Shown here: in pieces, positions 30,201 through 54,671 of the stretch | Position numbering within the stretch: the first letter of the stretch is position 1 | Layout: each line of letters opens with the position of its first letter | NCBI GenBank assembly: GCA_018389105.1 | Contig: JACATO010000985.1 | Coordinates: 402,001 to 466,000, forward strand | Origin: Nautilus pompilius | Taxonomy: Eukaryota; Mollusca; Cephalopoda; Nautilida; Nautilidae | Direction of reading: 5' to 3' | Length of the DNA stretch: 64,000 nucleotides | The notes under the pieces: generated by a model | Databases searched by the model: none | The model's input: only the letters and a program-made list of their open reading frames with translations | What the model was told of the DNA's origin: nothing | Made by a program: the position numbers and the translations under genes

Positions 30201-33200
30201 TGGAAGCTCTTAAATGGTGGTTATGATGCCAACCAGTCAAGAGCTGCTTATGGATCTGCCATCACAAGTAGCCAGAAAATCTCTGCTAGAACTTTCTGTT
30301 TTTCCAGATGTTGGAGGAAACTGGAGCACCTGAGAAAACTCGTATGGCCAGCTGGTGAAGAAGCAAACAGAAACCATTCTGGGAAGATATGTTAAACTGA
30401 GCCAGTCCCAACCAGTATTAAAACTTGGGGGTGGTGCTTAGCCTTAGCAGTGCAGTGGTCTACACTGGACCACAATGTCAGAAAATAAATAATTTTGTGA
30501 AGGCATCTGAATATTTGCAAGACAACAAGGATGATGGGAGTAAAAGATTTCTACTTTCCTTTTAGCAATTAATTTTATTTCTTTATTTACTTTTCCGTTA
30601 TCAGTGCCATACCTTTAGGGGCTTTATGTAAGTGTATGTTCTATGTAGGTGATTTTAAGTTGTTGGCTATCAAGTCATCGTCGTCTTTTTCCCATCTAAA
30701 AATACTTTGACCTCCTGTGCCATTTTCCCAATAAGAAACACATTCAACGAAAAACGTGAAATCTCTGACCCAGCTAAAGTGTACCAAAAAGAAATCAACT
30801 AAGCAGCCTACCATTTGAAAGCAGTTTCTTTGTGTAATAATCTTGCTATCACACGGTCTTCATGACTACAGAGCAGCTGTCAGTTTCCAAAGCCTTAAAA
30901 ACGTTTGATGTGGCAAATTTTTCATCAGCTTCTAGATAGCAATTGCCATGGTCACGAGTTAGAAACCACCAAGTAGGAAAGGATTTTTGAATGATCAGTT
31001 TAGTAATTCTGCTCTTGTAACATGAGATTGGTGTGTGCACGCATGCACAACACTCCCAAATAGATAATAGCAATAATGATTTTAAAAAATGATGTTGTGT
31101 TATTTAAAAATATTTAAAACTTTTTGATGTTGTTTAAACAAAATTTGTAGGTCTTTTATTGAGGAATTTGTATCGAAAGACAATATTGAACCTTCTGAAA
31201 GGAGTTCATACACACACAGACTGTATTCGCACAGGATGTTATGGGTAAGTATGATGATACTTGCTTTACTTCTCTTGACAGAGGTGCTTCTACATTAACA
31301 TATCTGGCTAGCATAAGAAATTAACTGTCTGATGTTTTTTGTAGGCATATATCTCTGGTTTTTTAAAGACTAGAACAGATTATGAATATATTGTTTATTG
31401 GTTTTCTGTTTGTGAATTTTGATTCTAGAGTAACTGTTATGTATTCTTTCTTTTTTTTTCTGCTTCGATGGTCTGCTGTTGTTGCTAAAGAGAAAGTAGA
31501 AATCTGTCATTTTAATTTTATTGTAATTTCTTAGCCTGAATAACATTACCATATTTGTTTTTAGATTACCAGCACAGCTTCAAACTACAGGCATAGTTTG
31601 GGAACATGCAGACCTATTTGCTTCTATGCCAAAAGGTAGGTAAACATTGCCAATGAAAGTTTTCACTTTGCAAATTTTGTTGGAAATAATCAAAGAATAC
31701 ACTTTTCTTAAATGAAATCTAGTAATTAACAGACTTAATTTGTAAAAAAAAAAAATAATAACTTACCCTTATCCTTTATGAATATGTCATGAAATTTAAA
31801 CTTGTAATGTTTTTCTTCAAACATGTATGGGTGATGCCATGGCTCTCCTGTCAAGAAGAGAGCGAATAGCTTCAAATGTGTCACAGTTGTGCAAGATTAT
31901 ATGTTGTATTCATGATGGGGTTGGATGCTACTCTAATTTCAAAAGAGTTGAAAAAAAAGATAATGCACTTTCAAAAAAATTTATATGCAGATAGTTAATT
32001 ATTTTATATATACATTTGGTGATTTTTAATTAGTAAATTTTTTATTAAAAACAAATCCTGAATAATAGTGATATATCACATTTTTTGGAGGATAAGATCA
32101 GCATCATAAGAGTAATATTACAATAACATGTTGCTTTTAAAGGTTAGTAAACAAATATGTTGCTTAATTTTAAAACAAAATAGATGATGTTTTGCTACAG
32201 AACTCAATGCAGTATCAGTAACTGAGTTAGTATTTTTGTCACAAGTAGAATGATGTTTTGTATATATGTGTTTTCAGTATATGAAGATACTGTAGACAGC
32301 TAATGCTGATGCTAGGATTTGAACCAGGAATGCCCCTGAACTCAGTTGGTAGTACACATGGGTTAGCAACCAGAGATTCCTGTTTCAAATCCTAGCATCA
32401 GTATTAGCTGTCTACAGTATCTTAAGATAGCATGTGCACACGCGTGCACGCACACACACAATAGATGATATTTGAAACTGTTTTGATCAAAAGTGAATTT
32501 AGGAATTTTTTTTCCCTTAGAATAATCAATGCTATGATTTGTTTTCACTACTAGAATTTTCTAATTACAATTAATCAAATGCATATAAGAAAGAAATAAA
32601 TAATTATTTGAATGCAGATACTTCAGAGGCTGCTGTAGTGAGAGTACAAAAATAAGTAATGTCCGAACCCATACAAATGCTGTACAGTACACCATCTTAC
32701 ACATTTATCACTCGGATGTACACAAAATTGTTTGTTTTTTTGACAGAAAAGCTCTGTTGTGCATGCATGTTTGAAAAGTATAAAATGTGAAAATTTTGTG
32801 GAATTTCTTTGTAATTAAAGACATTAGTAAGTTATTAGTAAAAATATTTTTAGTTATGGAATAAATAAAGTAGTCAGCCTCTTGTTCCGTTAATTTTGTA
32901 CACCTCAACTGTTACAGTTTGACTATTTAAATTGGCTGCCTGTATATTCACATGCGATTACTTCTCATGTATTTCAGGTGGCTTGTAATTGAGGAGCAAA
33001 TTCAATAACTCCAAAGTTTTGTTGTTTTTAGATTTTGGAGATTGACAGAGATTATGGCCACTGCTTCATCAGTTTCTGGGTGGCAGGTGCCATGGTCACT
33101 AGTACAAGCATCTAAAATTCTGCATGTCCATACAGGACACCTACCATTGATGAAATACACAAATGATTATCGATAAATAACCTGTAAATCATGGCAGATG

Positions 33201-36200
33201 GTTTAAAGATTGTTGTTTTCAAAAATAATGGATATGTACGTATATATTTAGTGTGTTTAATATGAAAGTGTTACAGAAAATAATTATAGTGTAGTGAAGC
33301 CTATAACACAACACAAGCATCATCATCACTCATGAAAATCAAAAGCCAGAGAAAGAAGAACAGTATTCACACAACATAAAGAGACTTCAAGGCATAATTT
33401 CAAGTTGTTTTACCACTACCCTTCCTAATCATATGTTGGTCAGTGTAATCCAATCACATGCCTGGTGCCAGAATTGCTTTTCTAAAACTACAGAAATGCC
33501 TCCCAAAGCCAGTATTGGCATCAATAAGCTTACAGTGGAGATGGAGAAATACGTTCTTTGCATAATCCATTTTGCTCGTTACTCACATAGTGCATGACTC
33601 TTGTTTAGAGCAGCAGCCTTAATGGTAATTTTCAAAATATATTTTGCTGTTTTCAGTCTGATTGCTTTGATTTCAGACAATAAAAGTGCACTGTTGGTAC
33701 TTATGAAGCAGTCTCTGGATTTAGTGAAAGATGCTATAAAAGAAATAGAAGAGGTAAAGGAATATTTAAAAAATAAACATTTTTTATACGTATGGAATTT
33801 CTAATTGTCATACCTAACATTGATTAATCTATGAAATTGGAATGTTTTATTTATGAATGCAGAATTATGGCTTGCATCAGTCTGTAGATGCTGCACTGCT
33901 AGAATGCTTGATTCTGCCATCAGAGAACAGCTACGTATTTAATGACAGTGAGAGCTAAAGAGGGTGCTCACTACTGTTGTTGATCAACTTGCCATGTATG
34001 CTCATGTATTTGTGTGGTGGAAACAGAATGTTTTCTCTGCTCACCAGAAGCAAATAAAAGAATAGTATGAAGCAACCATCATTAGTCTTTCTGGCCTGCT
34101 AACCACAAGCTGTGTTCTGTGGTGTAGCTAATGAAAATGTAGAGAAATTCATTTAGCCGATCTTGGAGTCATGGGAATTGTGGCACATTCAGAAAATCGA
34201 CAGGATGATAAAACTTAAATTGAACAAAATTATTGCAGTTAGAAAATTGTAGCGCACAGTGCACCAAATACCATGATGGAGAAACATGTTTTCACACATA
34301 CCGAAGTGAGAAAGAATCCAGTGAAAACAGTCTCTGGTAGTCAGCATTTCTTGAGTCGGGATAGTTTTACTTTTCATCTGAACACCACTGTGTGAACACA
34401 GTGGCACTGTAACCTGCCCTTGTGGCTGCAAATTACCACTAGGGGATGCATGTATTGTTTTGAAGGGGTTATCCGATGCAGATGAGTAGATCATTACTAC
34501 TAATATAAATGAATTGTTTAATGATTCCTTCATTTGCTTCTGATCTTGCATGATTCTGCTAGAAAGCAACTTAATGAAAAACAAGTTTTTTTTTTTAAAT
34601 TAGGAGTGTTCATCTGCTAACTTGACTCAGTCAGAATCTCTCTCTGTCTCTCTCTCTCTCCCCCTTGAGGCTCACATTCACCCAGAAACTTCCAGGCTGA
34701 TTAAAGTCATTTAAGCAGGCTTCATTGATTGACCTGTTGGCTACTAGGGACATTTGAATCAAACCTGGCTGTAATAGCATTTTTGTAATGATATCTGGCC
34801 AGGTTTAATTTGAACACCCCTAGTAGTTTACCGAAGAAAGTTGGGAAAGTTGAGATTGTCCTAATCTTTCACACACGACATGGGGTTGCCAGGTAACAGA
34901 ATTTAGAGATTTTTTTCTTGCATCAGATTACATCATATGCATTAACAGTAGTCAACCCATAAGTCCAAAACAACACAACCAGATTGTTTTTTTAGGTAAT
35001 CATTGCTTTCTTTGTTTTTTTTTTCCATGCACTCTTGGTCAAGTTGTTTTTTTTTTTTTTGTTTTAAAATTTGAACAAGAATCAGTTAACAGAGATTTGG
35101 AATAGACTGATTATTGTGTTCTATTCTGACAGGCATCAAATGACTGTGGTCAGTGCCCTTATTTGAGCAGTAACCTGGAAAATGAAAATGACAGCAGTCT
35201 GAGCAATAAGGATGAGTGGACGGAGGCTGAAAAACAGTTGCTGAGTCCATGCCTGGGCCTTATAAAAGTAGCAAGATCATTACTCAAGAAATCCATTGAC
35301 GTAATAAGGAAGAATGGCAAATGTGACACTGAAAGCCAAATCAGCCAATTTGATGATCTCAGTGACCATGTGAAGCAGTTAAGTCCCACTGTGGACAATT
35401 TAGCTTCCTGCCTCTATCCACCCATGCATTATCATATTGTTAGCAGTAATGTATGTTCATCTTCTGTTATTCTATTTCACTTTTTAAAGTAATGGGGGGG
35501 ATTTATTTATTTATCTATTTGGCTAAAAAAAGTTAATGTTGTCTACATACATTAAAATTAAACTGATCAACTTATGAAACTAGTTTTTTAAAAATTAGAT
35601 TAAATCCATATTGTTTTCTGATCCAAGGTTTATAATTATATTGTTGTAAGAGAGATAACTTCACATTTAATGATCATTTTCAATCTCTCAGTTTGTATCC
35701 ACTCAAAAATCTGCTCTTAGAATGAAGTTTAGGACATGAGATCTGCTGGTTAAATAAGTTATCAGTATACACACTCTGTGAGCCAGGTGATATTCAGTAC
35801 AATTCTCCACTAGTATTATTATTTAGAAACTATGCCAACAGACTGATAAGAACAAAGATACTGCACTACCAAGTTTACTAAACATTACTCATCAGTTTAA
35901 AACTTTCATATTAAATTAAGTGTATAGTACTAGAACAATAAACTATAATGCAAATGAACAATCTGTAGCCAGTTTAAATTGATTTTTTATTTGTTTTTTT
36001 CAGGCTCAACACTTGGCAACACTCGAGATGAATTTATTAAACCGTATCTGGTAATTATTTACTACTTTCTCAATCTAAAGACTCACTTGCAACATTTTAA
36101 AATGGCAGCATTTTTACAAGTTCAGCCACATCTGATTGTGGGGACTATTCTGCAGCTTGAGCTTATGTTGCCAAAAGCAGTTGTTTTCCACAAAAAGTGT

Positions 36201-52499: not shown

Positions 52500-53203
52500 A
52501 GGACATTAAAATGGGTGTTTGGTGCTCTGATCCCAGTCCATCTACACAAAGAATTATTTGGTCTTTACCACATCCTAGCAACACGCAGACCAAAATGTTG
52601 TAAAGAATAAGTTAACCACTAAAGCTTTAATTTTGTCACTGCTCAAATTATGCTAACATTTCACCAAACATATTTTTAGATATATAATTTTTAAAAATGT
52701 GCATATTACTACAATTTTCATTATTTTTATGAATACTCACTCAAAATATTGTGAAAACAGTTGTAGTGCAAATTACTGTCTTCTATGGAATGCAAAAATG
52801 TTTTAGAATTTGAGTGCATTTGTGATTCTGGAGAATGTCAAATATGTGCAGTCAATGTATTCGTCTAATTCATTTTGATGAACTGTACAATAATGGCTTG
52901 TTTTTCCATATTAGATTATTTCCAGATTGCTTCACTTTTACTTATGTTCTTAATCATTACACTGCTTCTTTTATCCCATGGCTATATTTCTTAGCTAATT
53001 TAACAAGCAACAGAACAGATTTGAAAACATCTCCAGATAAAACTGTTTTAGCATTACTGTTACTCATCACAATTTTTTTTTCCTTTTAGTATGTCTAACA
53101 TTCCAGTTAAGTAGATAGACATTTTTGTTTTGTTTTTACCTTTTAAACTTAAAAAAAAAACAAAAAAAAACAGCCATTTAACTGCCGTAGCAAGAGACTT
53201 ATA
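52500..53203. other. AT-rich intergenic DNA
   Basis: Nothing supported. The ORF at 52835-53089 is low-information, and A-runs occur at 53151-53170. Confidence 0.4.
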
Positions 53204-53675
53204 ACACTGGTCAACACAATATTTTTGGCAGGAAAAGTGAGACTGGTTTCTGGGGTTTTCAAGGGCGCTGAATCCGAATCTGACATTTGTTTTTTCAAGT
53301 TGGCTCTAGTTTTGGAGATATCACAGGGGGGTCGTTCGTCTGAAATCACCCATTCGCGACCATAACTAAACGTACAAAAAACGGCTAAATAGTGCAAAAA
53401 TGTCAGATATTGATTTTTATGATAATCCAAAACCACAAAGACAGTGTAAAATCTCAATCTAACAAGTTAAGTTAGATATAACATCATTTCATTTATTAAT
53501 AAATGAACACTTTTCATATATTTCGAGAATATACAAAAAATTTGCTAAAAATTTGCTGAATTTTAATTCTCCAAGGGAAAAAAAACATTTACATAATCAG
53601 TTATATATCATAAATTAATGCAAAGCATTATTATACACTAGATTCTTAGTTACAATGAACACACAAAACAATATT

Positions 53676-54238
53676 TTATTCACAAAAGTGAAATTGACGT
53701 TTATACGATTTTCGCTTGTGAGCAACTTTCGGGCAGTCTCTCAAAAGGTTCCAGCAGTAGTCTGCCATCATGTGCTCATCCCATTTGCCTTGATACCTCT
53801 CTTCCATTGTTTTGATGTCTTGATGGAATCTCTCTCCTTGCTCCTCACTGTAATCACCAAGATTACCAGGAAATCTGTCGAGGTGGCTAAACAAGAAATG
53901 AACTTTGATGCTCACATTTGCCCCTAGTTTTTCGTATGCAGTAAGCATCTTACGGACCAATTGCTTGTAATTGTCAGCTTTGTGATTTCCCAAAAAGTTT
54001 GTCACTACATCTGTGAAGGACACCCAAGCATTTAACTCAACCATGTTCATATGATTAGTGAAGTCAGAATCCCTCATGAGCGTTCGAATCTGAGGTCCAT
54101 CGAAGATGCCACCTTTAGCTTTTTCGATGGAAAGACCTGGAAATTGCCTGCATATGTACTTGAAGCAATCCCCATCTTTGTTCAACGCCTTAACAAACTG
54201 CTTCATGAGCCCTAGTTTTATGTGCAAACTGTTTTAAA
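53676..54238 (-). pseudogene. C-terminal part of a multicopy invertebrate transposon-associated protein
   Basis: An open frame of about 187 codons starts at a splice-acceptor-like TTTTAAAACAG and reads LHIKLGLMKQFVKALNKDGD, then FKYICRQFPGLS, GGIFDGPQIRTLMRD, ERFHQDIKTMEERYQGKWDE and HMMADYCWNLLRDCP. From memory this is the end of a protein family found in many copies in arthropods and other invertebrates, whose longer members carry KVLLPPLHIKLGLMKQFV. Everything upstream of that point is absent here. The remaining frame has no stop until the natural end, so decay is recent or the fragment is constrained. The enzymatic function of the family is not known to me. Confidence 0.65.
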
Positions 54239-54266
54239 AACACTACATACATAATAATTATTATGT

Positions 54267-54334
54267 ATTTTCTGATATTATTGAATCATTATAATGATTA
54301 TAATCATTATAATGATTCAATAATATCAGAAAAT
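54267..54334. repeat. Perfect 68-bp palindrome
   Basis: Two 34-bp arms meet between 54300 and 54301 with no spacer; the arm begins ATTTTCTGATATTATTGAAT. It lies immediately beside the truncated 5' end of the ORF in the inverted-repeat unit. Such a sequence can extrude a cruciform. Confidence 0.95.
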
Positions 54335-54671
54335 TATTATTTACTGCTTCTATATTGAAGTATTTCAGGGAGAATTTTAGCAGTTTAGGCTTATTTGAGG
54401 CTATCAATATCTTCTAAACTAGAGCCAATCAGACAAAACCAATGTTATATTCGTAATCAGCGACCTTCAAAACCCCAGAAAACACTCCTAGATGGTCTGC
54501 CAAAGAAAAAAAATAAAAATTTGTTGACCAGTGTAATTCACTACTTTGTCAACCTTGCTTGCTTTAAATTGAATAATCTGCAGTACTTACTGCTAAACTC
54601 AACAGAGAAACAAACGTGGGAAACAAAACCACCTTTGCTGGACATGTGTTTCGGACTGCCTGTTCTAATCC

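Follow-up and report, generated by a model that had tools for sequence, protein, structure and literature searches.

A short, internally deleted transposon of probable Chapaev3 type in the genome of Nautilus pompilius

Chapaev3 transposons, of the CMC megafamily, are described as having a TWA duplication that always has an A before it and a T after it, CAC...GTG ends, and a transposase with the motifs C(2)C, LH and H(4)H (PMC4079192). TWA stood between A and T in all of the Chapaev3 elements examined in that account; Garfield, from the silkworm, is 2,289 bp long and encodes a 556-aa transposase in two exons, the other elements are mostly apparently single-exon, miniature inverted-repeat transposable elements (MITEs) derived by deletion occur, and two lamprey elements are entered in its table with >254 and >249 copies (PMC4079192). 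A further source on published Chapaev3 (CMC) features is PMC12730594. Here we analyse a 64,000-nucleotide stretch of DNA (the window) from Nautilus pompilius (contig JACATO010000985.1, positions 402,001 to 466,000, of assembly GCA_018389105.1), in which a unit with terminal inverted repeats (TIRs) encloses the end of an open reading frame (ORF). This unit is very likely a non-autonomous, internally deleted derivative of a Chapaev3-type cut-and-paste DNA transposon, and the window family is a new family of a known kind.

Ends, target site and protein motifs

The inverted 13-bp ends of the unit match exactly (window 53204-53216 and 54522-54534), as the original prediction had it, and the arms, which had been called alignable over about 125 bp, can be aligned over about 120-130 bp if gaps are allowed; blastn comparing the element with the window shows a gap-free core of 81 bp at 81% identity (E 1.6e-16). 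Of the 13-mer, the outermost A and T are part of the target duplication, not of the element. The unit predicted at 53204 to 54535 is therefore real but slightly off in its limits: the transposon proper (53205-54533; 1,329 bp) reads CACTGG...CCAGTG, with the ends CACTGGTCAACA, and is flanked by TAA on the left (53202-53204) and on the right (54534-54536).

All ten junctions read, two in the window and eight at the loci L001-L008, have the form ATWA/CAC or GTG/TWAT, and in the window each such 4-mer class occurs at a frequency of about 0.019. Matching target duplications flank all four complete copies (two TAA and two TTA). Insertion between A and T, a 3-bp TWA duplication and 5'-CAC...GTG-3' termini, here CACTGG...CCAGTG, are thus all found, as in the Chapaev3 description. 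PIF/Harbinger elements also make TWA duplications, and that trait is likewise present. Membership in PIF/Harbinger, or in EnSpm/CACTA in the narrow sense, would accord with the 3-bp duplication, the CACTG start and the TWA target, and is nonetheless very improbable. PIF/Harbinger elements combine a Harbinger-type DDE (Asp-Asp-Glu) transposase with a Myb-like second ORF, and to our knowledge no C(2)C/H(4)H has been described in their enzymes; Pfam matched neither Transposase_21, nor a Harbinger-type transposase, nor a Myb-like second ORF in the fragments scanned. Moreover, TWA lies here between A and T, as in the Chapaev3 elements examined in PMC4079192.

The protein encoded by the window ORF (P0001) contains LHIKLG (residue 3), HFLFSH, which is an H(4)H motif (residue 112, within KVHFLFSHLD), and SEEQGERFH (residue 129). 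Raw minus-strand frames of other copies supply further motifs: WRLFIDSSKASLKV, with the Asp motif LFIDSSK, is read at C5:466554, and a single stop-free stretch of 84 codons at C6:8746 holds CVDLK, then CFLC 19 residues past the Asp of CVDLK, and PPLH farther on. The LH motif is also seen in the form PPLHIKLG. When motifs are pooled from different copies, C(2)C, LH and H(4)H of the Chapaev3 description are all present, C(2)C being deleted in the window copy, and a putative DDE triad is made up, again from frames of different copies, of the Asp residues in LFIDSSK and CVDLK and a Glu in SEEQGERFH. Library scores of the window ORF stayed below threshold (Glyco_hydro_18, E 0.02; SbmA_BacA, E 0.076). 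Relatives were not found in the viral_contigs, genome_contigs and phage collections, and a literature search with the TIR letters returned no title on transposons among the matches listed.

The original prediction had left the element outside any assigned superfamily. This is not supported: the published Chapaev3 (CMC) features that can be tested fit, and on that ground we rejected a new superfamily. The fragments matched no library model above the cut-off and the Chapaev3 likeness was established without alignment to a named Chapaev3 protein, as might be expected if a hitherto unrecognised TIR superfamily resembled Chapaev3 in its ends and target site only; such a coincidence is improbable, given that the duplication, its A and T neighbours, the termini and three protein motifs are all as in the Chapaev3 description.

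Copies in the host genome

The host assembly searched (727.6 Mb) contains 2,510 exact copies of the 13-mer ACACTGGTCAACA (1,241 forward and 1,269 reverse), compared with 40 (29 and 11) of a reversed-pattern control. Among the first 100 places listed of these 2,510, to which the pairing analysis applies, 66 form 33 pairs, every one of them inward-facing; no other orientation was seen between end neighbours within 6 kb, and the chance expectation within 3 kb is about 0.27 pairs. Because copy number and pairs so greatly exceed control and expectation, the inverted ends occur far beyond chance. Measured from end to end of the 13-mers, the pairs fall into classes of 1298-1364 bp (10 pairs), 1570-1638 bp (four), 1731-1801 bp (15) and 2317-2385 bp (four), the last comprising C13:299185-301569, C29:507902-510259, C36:270288-272604 and C52:754385-756757.

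The same genome holds a second family with an identical 13-bp end, to which one of the 15 pairs in the 1731-1801 bp class (C7:83854) belongs. It is represented by L008 (C7:82354-85366, with the element from 83854) and L001 (C1, end at 740240-740252), two loci that are 97.7% alike over 810 bp. Using blastn, no match to the window family was obtained for L008 against the window and C5:466554 copies, or for L001 against C5:466554. In its C-terminal piece, L008 shares 47% identity with P0001, and E131, E134 and the two His residues of H(4)H are conserved; the N-terminal ORF of L008 is Cys-rich (FCYVCG...SACSNG...CYFC) and gave sub-threshold library scores (PIP49_C, E 0.0033; zf-AD, E 0.24; phrog_18095, E 0.26).

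The search with the window ORF gave 5,900 first-look candidates, of which 150 were scored; 148 of these are 100% and two 99% identical to the query. Open frames around the scored matches range from 185 to 572 codons, two of them (C131:971865 and C643:1063559) having the latter length as measured from stop to stop. By hand count, 27 of the 150, the window included, match from residue 1 of the query and so share the junction residues, and in 26 of them the frame is of 185 codons, like that of the window; in the other 123 the match starts at residue 3 and lies within a longer open frame. Four of the 33 pairs, all of 1744-1754 bp, enclose a scored match, with frames of 256, 353, 353 and 354 codons.

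Positions 1-1024 of the window copy are 99.1, 98.8 and 99.6% identical to the complete copies C5:187328, C5:466554 and C6:8746, respectively, and its positions from 1123, 1104 and 1123 to 1331 are 99.5, 99.6 and 99.5% identical to the same three. Alignment on both sides of the deletion indicates that ends and ORF travel together, so that the termini belong to the ORF, which had been posed only as a condition; the copies foreseen on that condition, many with a 3-bp target duplication and some longer with a longer ORF, were found in the host genome. That the ORF encodes the transposase of a TIR DNA transposon is very probable. That the window copy holds the ORF end only might suggest that an unrelated inverted-repeat element has captured the tail of a host gene; this is extremely improbable, because in each of the three other complete copies of this family that were read the tail is enclosed by those same ends, and it also occurs within longer open frames.

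Each aligned block differs from the three copies by 0-1 substitution and 0-11 gap openings, and the window copy as a whole by 0-2 substitutions over about 1.2 kb, which points to a very recent burst. Judged from sequence, the family is abundant and recently spread in the Nautilus pompilius genome. Differences between the window copy and C5:187328, C5:466554 and C6:8746 are nearly all indels. This excess over substitutions may reflect assembly error rather than age, which would explain why the frames of the three copies are broken at different points.

Several points weigh against the assignment to Chapaev3 and the picture of longer, complete relatives. Membership is argued from motifs, ends and target site rather than from a tree, and searches of Pfam, NCBIfam, PHROGs and PDB sequences yielded no credible match for the fragments. 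Both E131 and E134 are candidates for the catalytic Glu. Thirty-four of the 100 listed end places are unpaired, and at least one other family (L001 and L008) contributes to the 2,510 ends. The 572-codon lengths are values from a table, the ends of the frames not having been seen. The four pairs of 2.3-2.4 kb, known by position only, are put forward from their size as putative carriers of the 572-codon frame, and none of them encloses any of the 150 scored ORF matches.

The internal deletion and its proposed origin

The sequence that the window copy has in common with longer copies ends at 54227; it restarts at 54307 when compared with C5:466554, and at 54326 when compared with C5:187328 and C6:8746. 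At the junction lies a palindrome, 28 bp of whose right arm match C5:466554 on the plus strand, and 28 bp of whose left arm match the same stretch inverted. The original prediction had taken the start of the fragment for a splice acceptor, with a full gene containing an intron. That start is instead the junction of an internal deletion with an inverted duplication of the element's own sequence; an intron with a splice acceptor is ruled out by the frame of C5:187328, which continues through this point, and two copies have a single open frame of 572 codons. A separate, nested MITE was also ruled out as the source of the palindrome, as the right arm is mostly the element's own sequence and the left arm mostly its inverted copy. 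The features of the locus are collected in Table 1.

Table 1. Features of the transposon copy and its target site in the window
Feature	Position	Strand	Evidence or content
Internally deleted Chapaev3-like transposon copy, 1,329 bp (very likely)	53205..54533	- (transposase strand)	Exact inverted ends; 98.8-99.6% identity to three copies flanked by target site duplications, on both sides of the deletion
Target site duplication TAA, left, A before	53202..53204		
Target site duplication TAA, right, T after	54534..54536		
Left inverted arm, outermost 12 bp CACTGGTCAACA exact	53205..53321	+	blastn; 13-mer ACACTGGTCAACA with 2,510 exact genome copies
Right inverted arm	54407..54533	-	blastn
Putative transposase, C-terminal 185 codons plus stop (P0001)	53676..54233	-	With LH, H(4)H and the presumed last catalytic Glu region; lacks both Asp motifs and C(2)C
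Internal deletion junction	54228..54306		Comparison with longer copies
Perfect palindrome, two 34-bp arms, at the junction	54267..54334		

Since both Asp motifs and C(2)C are missing, the motif map predicts that the window copy has no working transposase, and its sequence is best interpreted as that of a non-autonomous passenger carried by longer copies. Those relatives, whose open frame reaches as many as 572 codons and whose length is probably about 2.3-2.4 kb, would most likely supply a DDE transposase with a RAG1-like zinc site formed by C(2)C and H(4)H. This enzyme would bind the CACTGGTCAACA ends, excise the element and insert it at ATWAT sites with duplication of TWA. Inverted junction duplications are expected from gap repair interrupted after excision, and because the window copy has one, the part encoding the two Asp motifs and C(2)C was probably lost by abortive gap repair with template switching. 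The deleted form would then have been mobilised in trans, and the 27 of 150 scored copies with the junction residues suggest that it has itself multiplied.

Two other inverted repeats were seen in the window. Positions 32278-32429 form a hairpin-like repeat with 54-nt arms that are 93% complementary and 44 nt apart, possibly a small MITE, and positions 30545-30568 and 31482-31505 are 24-nt arms, 92% complementary, with 913 nt between them. At the near-TIR site at 33434, an inverted-repeat search and inspection by eye found no element.

Comparison with known systems

The ORF piece, which the original prediction had left unplaced, gains a likely identity, and the hint of a new transposon superfamily is dropped as a false lead. 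Uncharacterised proteins of this type are abundant in invertebrate genomes, and the family is, we and the original prediction both presume, highly multicopy in arthropods. If the assignment is confirmed, such proteins should be masked as remnants of Chapaev3 transposase and not counted as genes. Because the compared copies show almost no substitutions, the host becomes a candidate source for a recently active element of this RAG1-related group. The KP product modulates transposition of the P element. A comparable situation may be suggested here, tentatively and as less likely than not: the family may be transposing in Nautilus pompilius today, with intact autonomous copies beside many near-identical deletion derivatives, whose open C-terminal transposase frame would yield a truncated protein (LH, H(4)H and the Glu region) that may modulate transposition.

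RAG1 has a spacing of 19 between D708 and C727, and the Asp-to-Cys spacing in C6:8746 is also 19. The window family differs from RAG1/Transib in its 3-bp TWA duplication and in its ends, and in PDB sequence searches with the fragments the best E was 0.49 (one search listed three matches at E 0.49-1.5 and the other none, with no RAG1/Transib chain among them). With EnSpm/CACTA it shares the 3-bp duplication, the CACT start and the wider CMC group, but Transposase_21 was not matched in the scanned fragments, and TWA stands between A and T at 10 of 10 junctions.

The closest likeness is to Chapaev3 (Garfield, Merrow and Conan), as far as its published description extends: TWA between A and T, CAC...GTG ends, the C(2)C, LH and H(4)H motifs, comparable maximum lengths of copy and frame, and the occurrence of non-autonomous deletion derivatives. 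The host is a different one, and the likeness is to that description and not by alignment. Whereas the lamprey Chapaev3 elements are given with >254 and >249 copies, the present genome has 5,900 first-look ORF candidates (150 scored), and the window family stands apart from Chapaev3 in its many medium-sized copies of 1.3-1.8 kb.
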